NCBI GenBank assembly: GCA_949316235.1
Contig: OX438749.1
Span: 17,438,414-17,502,413, forward strand
DNA length: 64,000 nt
Origin: Oegoconia quadripuncta
Taxonomy: Eukaryota > Arthropoda > Insecta > Lepidoptera > Autostichidae
Direction of reading: 5' to 3'
A model generated the notes under the pieces. That model was not told the origin of the DNA, did no database searches, and saw only the letters and a program-made list of their open reading frames with translations. The translations under genes and the position numbers were made by a program. Positions 3,409 through 58,224 of the stretch are shown here, in pieces. Position 1 is the first letter of the stretch. Each line of letters starts with the position of its first letter.

Positions 3409-4166
3409 TCAAATCAAATCAAATCAAAAATACTTTATTTTGTAGGTGCACAGGGTACACTTCAAATAGTCAGATTTTATATTTTCAACGCTACTGCTTG
3501 TTCAAAAGGCAATTTTCCCTTGAGAAGAACAAGCAAGAAACTCGAGAGGTTGCTCTTTTAAAAAAAAGGTTTTTACATTACAAAATTATTAATTATTATT
3601 TTATATTATACTATAATATTTCATTATTAATTGTGAAATAGTCTGGTTATGCGAACGGGCTGGTTATGTCCATGAATGTTTATCATCTAAATAATCTGAT
3701 ATTTTATAATATGCTTTCTTAATAAGCTTCTGTTTTATAGTATCTTTAAATTTATTGAAAGGAAGATTTTGTATATATCAACAGGAAGCTTATTGAAAAA
3801 GCGTATACATAGTCCTTTGAATGAATTACTGACTTTGCGGAGGCGACTTATGTGACCTGCAAGTTTATCTTTATTTCTTGTATTGACATCATGTTTATCA
3901 CAATTTTTCCTAAATGATGCTATATATTTTTTGACATATAGTATTAGATTTTCAAACATGTGCTGTGACGAAAAGGTTAGAATATTATACTCTTTAAATC
4001 TGTCTCTAAGTGACACTGCAGGTCTCAATTGATAAATTGCGCGAACGGCTCGTTTTTGCAAAACAAAGATTGTATTTATGTCCGCGGCATTTCCCCACAG
4101 CAAGATGCCGTAAGACATCAGGCTATGGAAATAACTAAAATATACTAATCTAGAGGAACTTAACAT
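3409..4166 (-). mobile_element. 5'-truncated non-LTR retrotransposon (NLTR-1)
   Basis: On the minus strand the element ends in AATAAAGTATTTTTG and a pentamer-type tail (four TTTGA units, 3409..3428). Upstream are its 3'UTR and the C-terminal part of ORF2 (3735..4166). The 3'UTR is shared with 1463..1795 and 8243..8448. The 5' part, including endonuclease and the reverse-transcriptase palm, is missing, which is the usual result of incomplete target-primed reverse transcription. Confidence 0.85.
3735..4166 (-). pseudogene. Non-LTR ORF2, C-terminal domain remnant (143 aa)
   Basis: The open frame gives 143 residues. It has the post-catalytic thumb-like segment typical of Jockey/CR1-type ORF2 proteins: SYGILLWGNAADINTIFVLQ then KRAVRAIYQL near residues 18-47, and a tail with RFFNKLPVDI. 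The same block occurs, diverged, in the chimeric protein at 24584..26091 (FWGNATDNEQVFIAQKR). No catalytic reverse-transcriptase motif (A, B or C) is present, so it is not an enzyme. The frame is intact, which suggests a fairly young insertion. Confidence 0.8.
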
Positions 4167-5862
4167 AACCTAACCAATCCGCTCGAAGCAGCACAGTTTT
4201 CTGCGTACAATAAATCCACTGGAGCTCTTGAACTCTTGAACTCATTTTCACTAATTACCACAAGTTTTAGAGCTAGCGGGATTACTCCGAACAATGTAGC
4301 TGAAAGACGTTTAAAAATAATCTGCACCCAAAAACATGTAAATTAAAATCTTAAATATTGCCCGAGCAAATCTACGAATTCTTTAATTTTAACTAACATT
4401 TCATTGTGCGTTTTCGTTCGGAAATCTACATGAATCTAAACAATAACCTATTACACACGGCAACGTATACTTCCCAATCTACCACAAGATAAGGCATAGC
4501 TAATTAACATGTATTTATTAATAATAACTTGTGCAACGAAATCACTGGAGTGAAAACTAAATACAAATCCATCTTAATATTATTTGTAAGTAAATACGTA
4601 ACTGATACCTGTAGAATTTTTAAAGCCAGTGGCCATGACATGTACGCAGGCGAACACAGATCATGATCAGATCGAGTTTCAGTAGAAATAAAATTGTATG
4701 ATCAATATTAGATCGACTCTATCGAAGCACGGCCAAAAACAATCAGACGTAATAGATACATCACGTCTCTATTTATCTGAAATACTACATGTCATATAAA
4801 TAGAGACGTCTACGTATATGTCAACAACTTCTATTTATTTAATATGCCCTATTTCTTTCGTTACAGTAAAAAACTCATCCGGTATATGTATGTGCTTCAT
4901 GTTTCTTCACTCGTCAGAATAACACACCCTAGAATTCTATTGTTTATTGACGAGTAACCCTATAATAAAGTTCTCCTTCATCAGTCGTTTTCATTGCTAG
5001 CCTTAGGCCTTATCTTACAATGCCTTAGGGAAAGTCGAAATAGTGGTTTTTCGAAGATATGGTGTTGTCGAAGTATTGTTCTGCCTGCCTTACTATATTT
5101 TTTCGAAGTAAGCAACATGTCGAAATAATGAACTCGAGTCTAGCCGTAGTCCACCACGCTGGTGAGAGCTTGGCAGACATTTACATTACTTCTCGACTAC
5201 TCTAATTCTTTATTCAATTTTGAATAGACCCACAGACAAACCTCAGTTGCCCGCCGTACGAGGAAGGCATGAATTACAAACTAATTACAGTGTATGCAAA
5301 TGAAGGCATTCATTTTCAAATGATTCAATTCGGCGGGGAGCGAGTTTTCATTTAGTCCGGTTATCGTTTGGCACTTATCTTCCACCTCGGTCGGAGTAAT
5401 AAATATCGTGCACATTGGAAGAGTTATTTCAAAATTTTACGTCTCGTATAAATACTAATTTCTGATGATTACAATAGGACGTGAGTCTATGTAATTAGCT
5501 TATCGCGATGCGGTACTATGGCCAGTTTGTACAAATAAATTAGTTTTATTTTCTTTTTATGAAAAGTACGGAGACGCGTTTGACCTTAACTTGCAGGGCT
5601 TAAACGAACATCTCAGCGCGACTAGACATAGAGTCACGTTCGAGACAGACTACATCTCTCAAAGCCTCAAGTCAAGCGACAGCCAATCAGCGGCAAGAGA
5701 CTGTGACTATGTCGCGCGCGACTCTTTCTCACTCGAATCGCTCTAAGTTGTAGTAGCCTTGCTGATGGAAAGTGATGATGTAGACGAAGAATAACCCCGA
5801 GATTCCTTAAACATAAAGGTCATACTTTAACGATCCGAATTATGAAGGAATCAAAACGGTTA
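4167..5862. other. Non-coding stretch, few recognised repeats
   Basis: No convincing gene is seen. It holds a solo arm of the TIR element described at 51861..52234 (4836..4886: atatgccctatttctttcgt to actcatccggtata) and a CpG-richer patch at 5575..5745 with a CCAATCAGCGGC word. Near 5755..5800 there is a short piece related to the repeat at 39478..39640 (ctgatggaaagtgatgatgt). Confidence 0.6.
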
Positions 5863-23671: not shown

Positions 23672-24060
23672 TTAAGTCGAAACAAAACTTACACTCCGCC
23701 CTCTGATCGCGCCAGATATTGCTTAAGGCTGCGCCGAGCGAAAGACGCGCGCGCTGTTTAGGTATTTCGCTTGATGCGAATGTGCGTATGGCAGACCGAA
23801 CACCGTCCGAGCGTAAACATATGTAACTCACATTTTCTTTATTGGGGGTTGTATTGGATTTCTTCTCGCAATAATTTTCAGGGCTATTTAGTATCAATTA
23901 TTTTTACTTTGTCTACTCCTTTTTAATATTGACCAAATGTGCTAAAAATTAAAACAAAATCCTTGTTAAATTTAATTTTTATTGATCTTTTAGGAAAGTT
24001 TATCAATAATGTAAAACTATTGGTGATGGTGCAAAATCTACAGATTATAAAACGCAAAAG

Positions 24061-25497
24061 TTCAATTTAATTCAATTTATTAATGTGAAACACAGGTATA
24101 AAAGATGTTAGTAAATATTATGGTATAAGTAACACTGTGATCTACTCCATTTTGATGATTGTGATCCATTTTGGCATACAAAAAAAATGGTTAGTTATTT
24201 ATCTAAGGTAGGTACATAGGCTTATCTAAGATGGTAGGATTTTTTTGCAAAAAAAAAAAAACAAATATATTACAGTAGATACCCATTAGCTTAGTTTCGA
24301 AAATTAATATTATAATTCCATGTCAATTATTAAGGACAATGTTAAAATTGTAAAATACGATTGAAATTGGTAAATAAAAATGTCAAATTGAAATGAAATT
24401 AGATTAAAATTACATAGTCATGGAATATTTAACATGAATTATATTCAGTCATTTATACATTATTCAACATATAGAGTCAATAATAATATAACAAGTCAAA
24501 CAGTAACTCAATGCAAATTAACAACTGCAAATTTAAATTAGGTGCTGTTTTCCCGCTCAGAAACAATCAAGCAGATTTGTCATTCAAGAAATCTTTAATG
24601 GAATAATGTGTTCTATTAAATATTTAAACAACGAACTCTTGAATGTACTTAGATCATGAAATTCTCGAATGAATTTAGGTATCTTATTGTATATTATTGG
24701 TGCCATTGCAAATATGCTATTTCTAAAAAGTGTAGTTTTACAGGATACTAAACGTAACTGATCACGTCGCCGTGCTCGTTTAACATGTTCAAAATGCTCA
24801 GGATTAGACCGAACAAAAATTGCAGTCTTGTAAATATAAATAGAAGGAACCGTGAGTAAATTCAGCTGCTTATAGAAGGGTTTGCAAGAATCTGTGCGTC
24901 GCAAATTACAAATAACTCTTATACATCGCTTCTGGGCTATAAACACTTGTTCATTGTCTGTGGCATTCCCCCAGAAAATTATACTATATCTCAGAGTAGA
25001 AGCTACGTAGCCATGATAGGCCGTAAGTACAGCTCCGCGGTTAACAGTTTTGCTTAAGATATGTAATGCATATGAGAACTTTGTTACTTTTTTGCATACT
25101 TCATTTATTTGTGTCGTCCATTCCATGTTACTGTCAATATTAATACCCAAGAATTGAGTTACTGATGCTTCATCCACCCTTTTACTATTATATTGTACAT
25201 TTGTTGTCATATTTAAATGGTTTCTTTGTTTAAAGTTCATTATTTTCGTTTTGTCTAGGTTAATCTTAAGGTTATTACATTCCAACCAGTCAATGATAGA
25301 TGAAAAACTGCTGTTGATATCCTCTTCATCCTCATATACCACAGTGCTATCATCGGCAAATAACACCATAGGATTATTTGTAGATTTCGGAATGTCATTT
25401 ATATATATTAGAAAAAGGAGTGGGCCTAATACACTGGCCTTGAGGTACACCGTAGTGCATATGTCTAGTTCCAGATGTATAGGATTGTATGTATGTA
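24061..25497 (-). mobile_element. 5'-truncated non-LTR retrotransposon embedded in exon 3
   Basis: The minus strand runs from just upstream of a GVPQG-type motif through the reverse-transcriptase C-terminal half, a stop at 24584, a 3'UTR of about 500 bp, and an AATAAA (24076..24081) followed by TTGAA-type tail units at 24061. The tail resembles the TTTGA tail of NLTR-1. The 5' limit is estimated from where the transposase-like sequence stops. Because both copies of the 3.4-kb element carry it at the same place, the insertion predates their duplication. Confidence 0.7.
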
Positions 25498-26091
25498 TAC
25501 AACCAAGTGTTGAGTTATGACTTGAAATTTCTTGTAGTTGTTGATAAATGTAAGTAAAATTTATAAGTCTGTTTCCGTTTATTGTAATTTCTTCTTGCTT
25601 TTCATTTTCAATATCTATATTTAATTCAAAATCAGACGTTTCTTGCGGAGATTCCTAAAAAAAACAGCATTACTAGTAGTTGTCCAAAATAAATTATTCA
25701 GTCAATTATGAAAACTCTTATCAAATGTCCAATTGAATTAAGTGCGTTCCTTGTGTACGGTGAATGTATCTATGTAACATAACAAAGAACTTACACTATG
25801 GCGACTTTGTCGAAAAAAAAATTCACTCCCCAATCCCCAAACAAATCGGCAATCAGCTGATCGAAATTAGGATGGGAAATAAATTTTTTGTTATTTTTTT
25901 TCAACCATGTCGCCACAGTGAAAGTCGTTTGTTATGTTACATACCTACATTCACCGTACAAATTGGACCTTATATTTGCTACAATTACAAGAACTGACCT
26001 GTTCATTATCAATTTGCGTTGTAGTTTTATTTTTTTTCTTGAATCTCGTCTTGCTTATTAATTTATAATATCTTTTTTTACGGTTTCCCAT
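24584..26091 (-). CDS. Chimeric transposase-like N-terminus / reverse transcriptase C-terminus, copy 1
   Basis: The model is a join of 25999..26091 (31 codons) and 24584..25654 (356 codons plus stop), 387 residues in total. The first coding exon starts MGNRKKRYYKLISKTRFKKK, very basic, and ends at a CAG|GTCAGT donor. Intron 2 ends TTTTTTTAG|GAA. Exon 3 continues in phase 0 through an acidic linker and INGNRLINFTYIYQQLQEIS then SHNSTLGC, which resembles, from memory, the start of insect proteins annotated with a Mutator-like transposase domain. After about residue 80 it becomes reverse transcriptase: SVLGPLLFLIYINDIP, FADD at residues 130-133, then the LKINLDKTKIM and FWGNATDNEQVFIAQKR blocks. 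Motif A, with its first catalytic aspartate, is absent, so polymerase activity is unlikely. The reverse-transcriptase frame is reached because GGC-AGT has become GGCCAGT just after GVPQG. Splice sites are predicted, not shown. Confidence 0.65.
25758..25956. mobile_element. TIR element inside intron 2 of the chimeric gene
   Basis: The ends cggtgaatgtatctatgtaa and its inverse (ttacatacctacattcaccg) pair over about 30 bp with small bulges, followed by a further inverted gtgta/ggcgac region. TA lies on both sides (25756..25757 and 25957..25958). It falls wholly within intron 2, so it leaves the predicted coding sequence untouched. It is also present in copy 2 at 56771..56968. Confidence 0.75.
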
Positions 26092-26615
26092 TTTACTGAA
26101 ACAAATAATAGTTTATTACTGTAATGAATGACGCCATTGCAGTTTTCTTAACTTGGCTCATCTTGTCGAACTCCACCCAACTAGACCAATATATTGTCAA
26201 TCCGAAATTTTATTTCGAAAAAATAATGAATGATTAAATAAGTGAAAGAATACTCTTTATTGCACAAGAAATGAAACAACAGTAATATAGGTACTACAGT
26301 TATGATAAACTACATTGTACAACTTCGGTGACCTCTTCCGGACAACCGGTGGTTAAAAGAAAATTAAAATTAAAAAAAAAAAGAGAGGTTATTAGAAAGG
26401 ACAGCTTTACAAAAAATATATGATAATAACATGACAGACAAAACCAGAATAAAGTTGCTACGCAACTGACCAATGTTTAATGAAAGTACAGAACAATAAC
26501 CTAAATGTAATATGTACATACATCACATATACTTAACTAATGTAACGTCTCTTGGTATTTTTTGTATGCAAGAAAAAGTTAGCAGTCTATTTAAAACTCC
26601 GAAAAATATACTTAC

Positions 26616-26716
26616 ACCGTTTTCGGCCGTCGCCGGTACACGAAATGACGCGATCGGTGTGTATAGTGGTGCTCAACAAAGTGACGTGCGCTCGCTCTGA
26701 ACACTTGTGGGCGACT
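26616..26716 (-). other. Predicted 5'UTR exon of the chimeric gene, copy 1
   Basis: This 101-nt exon would begin at the A of TCAGT (26716) and end before a strong donor GTAAGTAT (26615 downward). Intron 1 would be 520 nt and end TTATTTGTTTCAG at 26096, five bases before the start codon at 26091. All elements are identical in copy 2. The exon is GC-rich (cgcacgtc, gcgacggccg) relative to the rest. Confidence 0.55.
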
Positions 26717-26747
26717 GAATCACAGCGATGCGCGACATTATTTTATA
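26714..26747 (-). promoter_or_regulatory. TATA box and initiator of the chimeric gene, copy 1
   Basis: TATAAAA on the minus strand begins at 26747, and the arthropod initiator TCAGT has its A at 26716, exactly 31 bp downstream. This is the standard RNA polymerase II core promoter spacing. The region upstream is CpG-rich (ggcggccgcgcggc). The copy 2 equivalent is identical. Confidence 0.65.
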
Positions 26748-27559
26748 TCGCCGCGCGGCCGCCATAGTAAAAATGTATGGCGGATTTGAAGCGCATTTTG
26801 ATAAATTCATATCTTAATTGCCTAATACAATTTTTTATATTGGAGACGGTAAATTTGTAGTATAAACACTCCTGTTTCGGTTGAACTAAAAATAAGCGTA
26901 GATTTCTAATGTTATAAACTAAAAAAATACTTAACGCCACCATACGTTTTTTGCATTTTTGTCTAACTTTCCGTAATTTTGTAGAGTAATGTATAAATAA
27001 TTTTAAAATTTTTCCACGGAGTAAATATTAAGACATTCTTCGTCATGGTAAAAGTATTTTTTTTAAATGTGTATATCAAGTATTGTTGAATTTATCAACT
27101 TAACAGTAACTGCTGTTTTAGCACATTTCCCTCGGCGCAGGCTCGAATGCGGATATGCCAGTACGAGTGATTTTCTTTGCAAGATAGATGAGGGTATACT
27201 TTTAGTTGCAGCTGACTGTACTAAAACTTAAAAAAATCATCCAGGTATACAATGCAGTAGCATAATACTTAGCTAAATATCTTCGAAACGTACAACTATT
27301 TAAGTATTTAAAAACCAAAAACCCGACGGCATATATTTGTATTTTGCGGACGCCTTATTAGATTTTTTTACCATAAATGTGTCCTATGACACTCTAGGTT
27401 CCAGGGTGCGAGAGAGACAAGCAAGAAAAATGTATTCGGATTTATTAATTTATTGGTAAAGATACAAGTAAGTTTCATGGCAATCATTTCTTTAAAACTC
27501 TTGTGAAAATGTATTTCGTTCTTTCATAGATTTAAATGACAGGTGAATTAGAAATTTTC

Positions 27560-35052: not shown

Positions 35053-35904
35053 TCACCGTTTTTTTTTTTTTATATGAGAGGGCGGCAAACGAGCATGCGG
35101 GTCACCTGTTGGAAAGCAATCACCGCCGCCCATGGACACATGGCCGACAATTCGGACTGCGCGACGTTGACCGCGGTCAAAAGGAAGAAGCTGGTACTGA
35201 GGTGCCCCAGCCCATAGGTGAGAACAATACTCCACGTGCGGCCGAACTTGCGCCTTATAAAGTTGGAGGCGGTGAGCCGGCGTGAAGTAACGAGCCGCTC
35301 TACTGAGGACACCTAACTTTTTGGAGGCCAACTTGGCCTTTTCCTCCAGATGACCGCGGAATTGAACGCTACTGGAGATGTTCACTCCGAGAATCCCAAT
35401 ACTCAGCTTAACGTCAAGGGGAGTGCTCTGAAATTGAAGAGACAGGGGAAATGGAATCTTCTTTGCGGTGAATGCGCAAACTTGTGTCTTTTTAGGGTTA
35501 AACTTAACTAGGTTGAGCATGCCCCAATTAGAGACTAGGTCTAGTGAGGTCTCGATTTCAGACACAAGCTTGTCCCGACACTCATCAACGTGCGCCCGAG
35601 AAAGATTAGCACGGCCGGCATATAAGGCATCACCCGTACTGTCATCCGCATAACAATGGAAGTCACTGGTTTGTAACATATCATTGATATGCAGAAGAAA
35701 CAGGGTGGGGGATAGTACGCAGCCTTGCGGGACTCCAGTGTTCACGGGTTTTAAATCAGAGCAAGAACCGTCGACAACGACTTTAATGCTACGATCCGTG
35801 AGAAAGCTGGCAACCCATTTGCAAAAATTATCGGGCAGCCCAAAGGAAGCAAGCTTCGAGAGAAGCGCTTTGTGCCACACCCGATCAAAGGCTTTCGCTA
35901 TGTC
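35053..35904 (-). pseudogene. NLTR-3 ORF2 reverse transcriptase, palm to C-terminus
   Basis: The open frame of about 283 residues starts at the truncation point with motif A (DIAKAFDRVWHK). It carries motif B (TGVPQGCVLSPTLFLLHIND, about residues 57-76) and motif C (CYADD, about 89-93), followed by a thumb/C-terminal region with PHVEYCSHLWAGAP. The fingers, endonuclease and ORF1 are lost, so it cannot act as a full enzyme. The frame does not stop in the element: it reads through the poly(A) tail as lysines and stops in the host SINE (35053). A YADD box and H-x-E-Y-C-S-x-x-W suggest a Jockey- or R1-like group. Confidence 0.8.
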
Positions 35905-35906
35905 TG
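35061..35906 (-). mobile_element. 5'-truncated non-LTR retrotransposon (NLTR-3) with poly(A) tail
   Basis: The minus strand begins abruptly at a reverse-transcriptase motif A (DIAKAFDRVWHKA, starting at 35904) and ends in about 12 A residues (35061..35072). The SINE resumes at both edges. A 58-bp copy of the same 3' end plus poly(A) lies at 52318..52375. Any target duplication is at most a few bases (gttt). Confidence 0.85.
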
Positions 35907-36234
35907 TTTAAGAACAGTCGGATAAATGCATTTAAGTAATTTAATTAAATTTAAAAACTCATTGGTATATGGACTGCCTGGGAGTCGGACCCGGACCTCC
36001 TAAATTAGGAGCCCGCGTCTTAACCGGTGAGTCACTGCGTACTACCGGTATGCGATCGCTGTAGTACTGCGATCTATGGGGTGAGAAGGTGAAGCTAAAG
36101 AATATAATTTCTGACGACATACCAGTGCCTACAGAGGCTGTAGTTCCTTTCATTATAGCTGATTTTATTACAATGTGTTGATCATGTTGTAGAACCTGTG
36201 CAGGCCCTGGCACGCCTTACAAGTTTCTTCCTCC

Positions 36235-54600: not shown

Positions 54601-55596
54601 AGACTTCATACAAAATATATTTAAGACCGAATCAACATTCCCCTTTTACCCTATAGGTTATGCCTGTACTAGGAGATACAGAACCTGATAAAACAAAAAT
54701 TATGTAAAAAGGGATATTACAAAATTTCAGACTACCTTAAGGCTGCGCCGAGCGAAAGACGCGCGCGCTGTTTAGGTATTTCGCTTGATGCGAATGTGCG
54801 TATGGCAGACCGAACACCGTCCGAGCGTAAACATATGTAACTCACATTTTCTTTATTGGGGGTTGTATTGGATTTCTTCTCGCAATAATTTTCAGGGCTA
54901 TTTAGTATCAATTATTTTTACTTTGTCTACTCCTTTTTAATATTGACCAAATGTGCTAAAATCTAAACAAAATCCTTGTTAAATTTAATTTTTATTGATC
55001 TTTTAGGAAAGTTTATCAATAATGTAAAACTATTGGTGATGTTGCAAAATCTACAGATTATAAAACGCAAAAGTTCAATTCAATTCAATTTATTAATGTG
55101 AAACACAGGTATAAAAGATGTTAGTAAATATTATGGTATAAGTAACACTGTGATCTACTCCATTTTGATGATTGTGATCCATTTTGGCATACAAAAAAAA
55201 TGGTTAGTTATTTATCTAAGGTAGGTACATAGGCTTATCTAAGATGGTAGGTTTTTTTTGCAAAAAAAAAAAAACAAATATATTACAGTAGATACCCATT
55301 AGCTTAGTTTCGAAAATTAATATTATAATTCCATGTCAATTATTAAGGACAATGTTAAAATTGTAAAATACGATTGAAATTGGTAAATAAAAATGTCAAA
55401 TTGAAATGAAATTAGATTAAAATTACATAGTCATGGAATATTTAACATGAATTATATTCAGTCATTTATACATTATTCAACATATAGAGTCAATAATAAT
55501 ATAACAAGTCAAACAGTAACTCAATGCAAATTAACAACTGCAAATTTAAATTAGGTGCTGTTTTCCCGCTCAGAAACAATCAAGCAGATTTGTCAT

Positions 55597-57103
55597 TCAA
55601 GAAATCTTTAATGGAATAATGTGTTCTATTAAATATTTAAACAACGAACTCTTGAATGTACTTAGATCATGAAATTCTCGAATGAATTTAGGTATCTTAT
55701 TGTATATTATTGGTGCCATTGCAAAGATGCTATTTCTAAAAAGTGTAGTTTTACAGGATACTAAACGTAACTGATCACGTCGCCGTGCTCGTTTAACATG
55801 TTCAAAATGCTCAGGATTAGACCGAACAAAAATTGCAGTCTTGTAAATATAAATAGAAGGAACCGTGAGTAAATTCAGCTGCTTATAGAAGGGTTTGCAA
55901 GAATCTGTGCGTCGCAAATTACAAATAACTCTTATACATCGCTTCTGGGCTATAAACACTTGTTCATTGTCTGTGGCATTCCCCCAGAAAATTATACTAT
56001 ATCTCAGAGTAGAAGCTACGTAGCCATGATAGGCCGTAAGTACAGCTCCGCGGTTAACAGTTTTGCTTAAGATATGTAATGCATATGAGAACTTTGTTAC
56101 TTTTTTGCATACTTCATTTATTTGTGTCGTCCATTCCATGTTACTGTCAATATTAATACCCAAGAATTGAGTTACTGATGCTTCATCCACCCTTTTACTA
56201 TTATATTGTACATTTGTTGTCATATTTAAATGGTTTCTTTGTTTAAAGTTCATTATTTTCGTTTTGTCTAGGTTAATCTTAAGGTTATTACATTCCAACC
56301 AGTCAATGATAGATGAAAGACTGCTGTTGATATCCTCTTCATCCTCATATACCACAGTGCTATCATCGGCAAATAACACCATAGGATTATTTGTAGATTT
56401 CGGAATGTCATTTATATATATTAGAAAAAGGAGTGGGCCTAATACACTGGCCTTGAGGTACACCGTAGTGCACATGTCTAGTTCCAGATGTATAGGATTG
56501 TATGTATGTATACAACCAAGTGTTGAGTTATGACTTGAAATTTCTTGTAGTTGTTGATAAATGTAAGTAAAATTTATAAGTCTGTTTCCGTTTATTGTAA
56601 TTTCTTCTTGCTTTTCATTTTCAATATCTATATTTAATTCAAAATCAGACGTTTCTTGCGGAGATTCCTAAAAAAAACAGCATTACTAGTAGTTGTCCAA
56701 AATAAGTTATTCAGTCAATTATGAAAACTCTTATCAAATGTCCAATTGAATTAAGTGCGTTCCTTGTGTACGGTGAATGTATCTATGTAACATAACAAAG
56801 AACTTACACTATGGCGACTTTGTCGAAAAAAAATTCACTCCCCAATCCCCAAACAAATCGGCAATCAGCTGATCGAAATTAGGATGGGAAATAAATTTTT
56901 TGTTATTTTTTTTCAACCATGTCGCCACAGTGAAAGTCGTTTGTTATGTTACATACCTACATTCACCGTACAAATTGGACCTTATATTTGCTACAATTAC
57001 AAGAACTGACCTGTTCATTATCAATTTGCGTTGTAGTTTTATTATTTTTCTTGAATCTCGCCTTGCTTATTAATTTATAATATCTTTTTTTACGGTTTCC
57101 CAT
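55597..57103 (-). CDS. Chimeric transposase-like N-terminus / reverse transcriptase C-terminus, copy 2
   Basis: The model is a join of 57011..57103 and 55597..56667, 387 residues, same structure as copy 1. The donor (CAG|GTCAGT), the acceptor (TTTTTTTAG|GAA) and the phase are unchanged. Exon 2 differs from copy 1 by T to A and K to N in the basic stretch. Exon 3 differs at a few residues only (I to M before CTTVYLK, F to L in the NSSxSSII segment). The extra C after GVPQG that joins the frames is present. FADD is kept, motif A is absent. Cell role is unknown: the basic N-terminus could bind DNA, and the reverse-transcriptase half cannot polymerise as it stands. It may simply be a dead passenger that has kept its frame because the copies are young. 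Confidence 0.65.
56771..56968. mobile_element. TIR element inside intron 2, copy 2
   Basis: Same ends and TA flanks as 25758..25956, one base shorter because of an A-run. It moved together with the host element. Confidence 0.75.
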
Positions 57104-57628
57104 TTTACTGAAACAAATAATAGTTTATTACTGTAATGAATGACGCCATTGCAGTTTTCTTAACTTAGCTCATCTTGTCGAACTCCACCCAACTAGACCA
57201 ATATATTGTCAATCCGAAATTTTATTTCGAAAAAATAATGAATGATTAAATAAGTGAAAGAATACTCTTTATTGCACAAGAAATGAAACAACAGTAATAT
57301 AGGTACTACAGTTATGATAAACTACATTGTACAACTTCGGTGACCTCTTCCGGACAACCGGTGGTTAAAAGAAAATTAAAATTAAAAAAAAAAAAGAGAG
57401 GTTATTAGAAAGGACAGCTTTACAAAAAATATATGATAATAACATGACAGACAAAACCAGAATAAAGTTGCTACGCAACTGACCAATGTTTAATGAAAGT
57501 ACAGAACAATAACCTAAATGTAATATGTACATACATCACATATACTTAACTAATGTAACGTCTCTTGGTATTTTTTGTATGCAAGAAAAAGTTAGCAGTC
57601 TATTTAAAACTCCGAAAAATATACTTAC

Positions 57629-57729
57629 ACCGTTTTCGGCCGTCGCCGGTACACGAAATGACGCGATCGGTGTGTATAGTGGTGCTCAACAAAGTGACGT
57701 GCGCTCGCTCTGAACACTTGTGGGCGACT
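57629..57729 (-). other. Predicted 5'UTR exon of the chimeric gene, copy 2
   Basis: The exon starts at the initiator A (57729) and ends before GTAAGTAT (57628 downward). Intron 1 ends at TTTGTTTCAG just before 57107. Sequence is the same as in copy 1. Confidence 0.55.
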
Positions 57730-57760
57730 GAATCACAGCGATGCGCGACATTATTTTATA
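57727..57760 (-). promoter_or_regulatory. TATA box and initiator of the chimeric gene, copy 2
   Basis: TATAAAA begins at 57760 and the TCAGT initiator A is at 57729, 31 bp downstream, as in copy 1. The upstream region is within the transposed unit, so each insertion carries its own promoter. Confidence 0.65.
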
Positions 57761-58224
57761 TCGCCGCGCGGCCGCCATAGTAAAAATGTATGGCGGATTT
57801 GAAGCGCATTTTGATAAATTCATATCTTAATTGCCTAATACAATTTTTTATATTGGAGACGGTAAATTTGTAGTATAAACACTCCTGTTTCGGTTGAACT
57901 AAAAATAAGCGTAGATTTCTAATGTTATAAACTAAAAAAATACTTAACGCCACCATACGTTTTTTGCATTTTTGTCTAACTTTCCGTAATTTTGTAGAGT
58001 AATGTATAAATAATTTTAAAATTTTTCCACGGAGTAAATATTAAGACATTCTTCGTCATGGTAAAAGTATTTTTTTTAAATGTGTATATCAAGTATTGTT
58101 GAATTTATCAACTTAACAGTAACTGCTGTTTTAGCACATTTCTCTCGGCGCAGGCTTAATGAAAGTAATCCATGGGATTAAGCGGCTCGTCTACACGATA
58201 TATAAAAATTGTTGTAACCTTTCT

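Follow-up and report, generated by a model that had tools for sequence, protein, structure and literature searches.

Two near-identical copies of one mobile unit were found in the window, the whole stretch of 64,000 nucleotides that was analysed. We consider it probable, at roughly 0.8, that this unit goes back to an element encoding a PF20700-type transposase and a YqaJ exonuclease and is now an internally deleted, non-autonomous DNA transposon, most likely a member of the Kolobok superfamily (KolobokE-like), and that it was moved in trans. An autonomous element carries an intact transposase gene; here, clear similarity to the transposase family was present at 56667-56512 only. The unit looks like a common type of genomic parasite and not like the representative of a new class. 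It illustrates how a mobile element with nested insertions and an internal deletion can seem to contain a new fusion gene. For a transposon of the PF20700/YqaJ type, probably a lepidopteran one, it provides candidate ends and a candidate target site.

Boundaries of the two copies

When both copies were compared by BLASTN with about 500 bases of flanking sequence included on each side, a single match of 3423 bp with 99.53% identity was obtained. This match starts 5 bases to the left of the element (cTTAA) and stops 1 base to its right, and the flanks of the two copies are otherwise unrelated. The similarity thus extends no more than 5 bases past the element into unrelated surroundings, which implies that the unit moved as a whole. 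The initial annotation, which had described two near-identical units with the same boundaries and had attributed them to transposition of one unit rather than to segmental duplication, is confirmed on the first point and supported on the second. Inside the element, 13 substitutions and three indels of one base each distinguish copy 1 from copy 2, and there is a further 2-base difference in the right flank tetramer. The features of the element are compiled in Table 1.

The terminal inverted repeats, GGCTGCGCCGAG and GCCTGCGCCGAG, differ by one mismatch in 12 positions. Allowing up to 3 mismatches, we found four occurrences of TTAAGSCTGCGCCGAG in the window, one at each of the four element ends, against an expectation of 0.31. 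In viral contigs, the element-end pattern was found in 13 stretches with one exact match each, which we take as chance. The left terminus is GG and the right terminus is GC-3', alike in both copies. The perfect TTAA target duplications of the initial annotation hold for copy 2, which is flanked by TTAA at either end, but not for copy 1, where TTAA lies to the left and TCGA, which had not been reported, to the right; this leaves only one complete TTAA pair. Hence, TTAA occupies three of the four boundary tetramers, with odds of about 4e-6 at the window TTAA frequency of 0.01, a value for which the independence of the two left ends is arguable, because the TTAA there could belong to the unit itself.

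Table 1. Positions of the element copies and of their features in the window
Feature	Position	Strand	Remark
Element copy 2	54741..58155	-	3415 bp; transposase remnant on minus strand
Element copy 1	23727..27142	-	3416 bp; orientation as copy 2
Left terminal inverted repeat, GGCTGCGCCGAG	54741..54752	+	
Right terminal inverted repeat, inward GCCTGCGCCGAG	58144..58155	-	one mismatch
TTAA, copy 2 left target duplication	54737..54740		
TTAA, copy 2 right target duplication	58156..58159		
TTAA, left flank of copy 1	23723..23726		
TCGA, right flank of copy 1	27143..27146		TTAA expected here; not a TTAA duplication
Putative promoter and first non-coding exon	57629..57760	-	consensus motif matches only
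Putative TATAAA	57760-57755	-	
Putative initiator TCAGT	57731-57727	-	
Donor GTAAGT of first intron	from 57628	-	
First coding exon, MGNRKK...DNEQ, 31 codons	57011..57103	-	ATG at 57103
Foldback MITE in second intron, 206 bp	56767..56972		copy 1: 25754-25960 (206-207 bp)
Further PF20700-type transposase N-terminus, ESPQET...STLGC, 52 codons	56512..56667	-	tblastn of P0169
5'-truncated non-LTR retrotransposon (LINE) fragment	55074..56511	-	start somewhere in 56511-56497
Right-hand transposon remnant	54741..55073	-	AATAAA at 54996-54991

A transposase N-terminus followed by reverse transcriptase sequence

Read across the second intron, the minus strand encodes 83 amino acids that align with P0169 (Amyelois transitella uncharacterized protein LOC132902430, 856 aa) at 58% identity over 55 N-terminal residues and 71.6 bits. 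In contrast to the remnant, P0169 is of full length, and its first approximately 28 residues are unlike those of the element. As a control, 200 shuffled 83-aa queries were compared with the same 120 proteins (the best 120 of 509), and the maximum was 30.8 bits, a score exceeded by 20 of these 120 proteins with the true 83 aa. In a tblastn search, P0169 matched at 59.6% over 52 aa (E 3e-16) at 56667-56512, and this match ends at codon 83, window base 56512. Counted against P0169, about 770 codons are absent from the element. The 120 relatives gave 11 matches at this position and 11 at its counterpart in copy 1 at E <= 1e-3, and nowhere else in the window; taken together, these matches extend to 56422, beyond the end of the P0169 match. 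The P0169 alignment, the shuffle control, and the tblastn matches thus support the earlier description of the N-terminus as transposase-like.

That the N-terminus belongs to PF20700 was at first a presumption. A stretch of family sequence matched PF20700 in Pfam with 4.7e-99, and the bait for the protein search combined this stretch with the element's own N-terminus; at least 7985 candidates were scored, 509 of them had E <= 0.001, and the best 120 were considered. Since the bait contained the N-terminus of the element, the retrieval of P0169 is not independent evidence, and the shuffles test its score, not its choice. Used alone as a protein query, the 83 aa returned four candidates, none with E <= 1. 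The Pfam PF20700 model, which would cover no more than about 26 of these residues, did not match the 83 aa, and Pfam searches with pieces of the element gave only weak unrelated matches. Pattern searches for DNA relatives matched 11 (N-terminus), 3 (P0169), and 23 (alignment A1) stretches in viral contigs and 47 in genome contigs (alignment A1), none of which was confirmed by tblastn.

A gene layout from a putative promoter to a polyadenylation signal is readable on the minus strand, where TATAAA, TCAGT, and the donor GTAAGT are consensus matches to putative promoter and splice motifs. The first coding exon, whose similarity to the transposase family is weak, has an acceptor CAG just upstream and a donor CAG/GTCAGT; it is followed by the GT-AG second intron and by an open frame of 356 codons at 56667-55597 (minus strand), which is present in both copies. 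A spliced reading would be plausible, with the exon joint reading NEQ/ESPQETSD in the element versus DKQ ESLEDTSD in P0169; the P0169 alignment starts only three residues before this joint, so the splice is weakly supported. Transposase similarity was not found by tblastn in the right-hand remnant. Of the complete-looking spliced gene proposed initially, the promoter-to-polyadenylation layout with GT-AG introns can be followed, but the gene is incomplete, because it comprises only 83 transposase codons and a broken reverse transcriptase (RT) piece.

This RT piece is a LINE fragment that begins shortly ahead of the GVPQG motif, runs through the C-terminus of the RT, and continues into a 3' UTR that ends with AATAAATTGAATTGAATTGAA, after which we placed the 3' limit by eye near 55074. 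The 356-aa frame matched RVT_1 with 1.9e-12, at profile positions 123-204 of 205 only. It has 529 homologs, of which the best 120 listed cover 49-95% of the frame, most of them 70-79%. Manduca sexta P0015 is 49% identical over 78% of the frame and Phthorimaea operculella P0062 is 52% identical over 74%, and the named RT relatives among the matches listed are all from Lepidoptera (Manduca, Phthorimaea, and Heliothis). The best named transposase relative, P0169, likewise comes from a moth; this suggests, without proving it, that the host genome is lepidopteran. The proteins with the highest cover, P0017, P0044, P0077, and P0079 (88-95%), were considered as candidates for an already described fusion and rejected; they look like plain RT proteins, and their high cover is thus not evidence of such a fusion.

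Searched by tblastn, seven RT proteins matched in frames 3, 1, and 3 in succession. A short match in frame 3 starts from 56497 in three of the seven proteins and weakly from 56563 in P0015; the main match in frame 1, from approximately 56454 to 55624, was obtained with 7/7 proteins and extends weakly to 56595 in P0044; and a last short match in frame 3 near 55627-55586 was given by four proteins plus one overlapping (E 0.006-0.29). The alignments point to a clear frame change at the GVPQG motif, which the 356-codon frame crosses by chance, and probably to a second one near the C-terminus. Thus, the RT reading frame is incomplete in its start at RVT_1 position 123 and in its succession of frames. 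In contrast to P0015 and P0062, the RT of the element is 5'-truncated and has one clear and one probable change of frame. In three of the seven proteins, the RT matches start 14 bases past the end of the P0169 match; the break between transposase and RT is blurred by the two weak RT extensions to 56563 and 56595 and by the transposase-side matches to 56422. Regarding a target duplication around the LINE fragment, the longest shared word has 5 bases and is unconvincing. The initial annotation had seen in this region a transposase-RT chimera of a make-up not known from any described family. Its transposase-like N-terminus is supported. A new make-up is unsupported as a working design: the best match to the transposase stops at codon 83, and what follows is a piece of a LINE, truncated at its 5' side and with a disrupted frame.

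Probable relationship to Kolobok and alternative explanations

In PMC9587614, the TTAA target is given as common to piggyBac and Kolobok, and therefore the earlier association of TTAA with piggyBac is correct but unspecific. The same source states that Kolobok termini follow the rule 5'-RR and YY-3'; the left GG of our element fits this rule, but the right GC-3' does not in either copy. The features given there for KolobokE are a CCHC finger that follows the first catalytic D, a CxxH motif, and an exonuclease domain downstream, the finger after the first D being also present in KolobokP, KolobokD, and Kolobok5 (PMC9587614). P0169 contains both PF20700 (1.7e-95) and YqaJ (2.2e-11). Among 12 aligned relatives, PF20700 was detected in 12/12 and YqaJ in 10/12, and D, D, CxxH, and E columns are invariant in their alignment; the choice of the catalytic columns among these is our reading. 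By pattern, the first D motif was found in 110/120 relatives (the best 120 of 509), the CCHC finger after it in 105/120, and the second D motif and CxxH in 118/120 each. From the described features we infer that the PF20700 plus YqaJ proteins would correspond to KolobokE. The element itself keeps only 83 aa upstream of the catalytic core and lacks the CCHC region, and the exonuclease domain was not found in it by tblastn with the proteins of its relatives.

Compared by description, the element shares with KolobokE the TTAA target, and its full-length relatives share a transposase followed by an exonuclease, with CCHC finger and CxxH; the element differs in having only 83 N-terminal codons and GC-3' at its right end. 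Its assignment to the Kolobok superfamily, KolobokE-like, is most likely by described features rather than by labelled Kolobok sequences, and we refrain from filing it more firmly because the right end departs from YY-3'. Our literature search retrieved no paper joining Kolobok with PF20700-type names, and KolobokE is thinly covered in the literature searched. A further system for comparison is that of the Kolobok copies of Xenopus, with full-length XKol copies and non-autonomous T2-MITEs (PMC6004289). XKol resembles the element in its TTAA sites and the purine start on the left, but both XKol ends start with AG, in contrast to the GC right end found here (PMC6004289). Compared with the Xenopus copies, our element is also set apart as a long unit, non-autonomous, that retains part of a transposase gene and contains nested insertions. 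One of the ten full-length XKol copies listed has an altered right flank, ATAA (PMC6004289, Table 5), and a changed flank such as the TCGA of copy 1 is thus tolerable, though unexplained.

In our preferred reading, the element retains both ends, a putative promoter region, and the first 83 transposase codons, and it has lost the remaining codons, with the LINE fragment in their place. The loss may have come about by an internal deletion and a LINE insertion, or LINE sequence may have been taken up in gap repair; both fit. The foldback MITE lies in the second intron, and the first may contain further remains of repeats. The transposase would come in trans from an intact relative; it would bind the ends, excise the unit, and paste it into TTAA. 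Given two near-identical, cleanly bounded copies without a complete transposase, mobilisation in trans is the simplest account, and such a partner presumably exists or existed.

Three other explanations were weighed and rejected. The unit might be a non-autonomous piggyBac element whose cargo happens to include part of a PF20700 transposase gene, which the shared TTAA duplication would allow and with which the misfit of the right end to the Kolobok rule would agree. We regard this as unlikely, since the transposase remnant lies where the transposon's own gene would be and has its own putative promoter, and since no piggyBac-type Pfam match was obtained with the long frame (E up to 1) or with the N-terminal piece (E up to 10), in line with the earlier statement that the coding content is not a piggyBac transposase. 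Moreover, piggyBac ends usually begin with CC, whereas the element begins with GG. A still less probable alternative is that segmental duplication or an assembly error produced the two copies. In its favor, only two copies were seen in the one window, in the same orientation and with starts 31 kb apart; however, the similarity is lost at the inverted repeats on either side, the flanks being unrelated, and the 16 internal differences argue against a plain copy error.

Equally improbable in our estimate is a functional two-part gene, in which an N-terminal DNA-binding or regulatory part of the transposase is fused to a working RT and both are carried and selected as a unit. The 356-codon frame kept in both copies, the GT-AG splicing, and the putative promoter and polyadenylation signal could be cited in its favor. 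Against it, the first part of the RT is absent, with RVT_1 matched over its last positions only, and one frame change lies where the RT begins and probably another near its C-terminus. Between the copies, the 356-codon frame shows three substitutions, two of them altering an amino acid, and the first coding exon shows two, each altering one; there is no sign of selection, the substitutions being too few for a test. It is tempting, if far-fetched, to speculate that the gene is nevertheless still transcribed and spliced and that a protein composed of the transposase N-terminus and the RT tail binds the ends and represses an intact relative. Such a repressor would act as a self-limiting regulator that arose by capture of a piece of a LINE.

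Nested and neighboring repeats

The foldback MITE matches its own reverse complement at 72%, and the folding of 56764-56975 yielded z = -11.7, with 0/200 shuffles as stable. Its ends are TGTACGGTGAATGTA, and a TA target duplication is possible but uncertain. The MITE and the LINE fragment are both present in the two copies of our element and are therefore older than its last move. Rfam gave no match at gathering score in the window. A stretch of the first intron, 57225-57560, possibly represents the 3' end of a further retroelement lying in minus orientation (GTGCAATAAAG). Two further non-LTR RT fragments are located elsewhere in the window, both on the minus strand: one at 35053-35907, with an open frame of 284 aa and an RVT_1 match of 3.3e-19, and a C-terminal fragment at 3673-4175, with 32-37% identity to the best-matching RT proteins.
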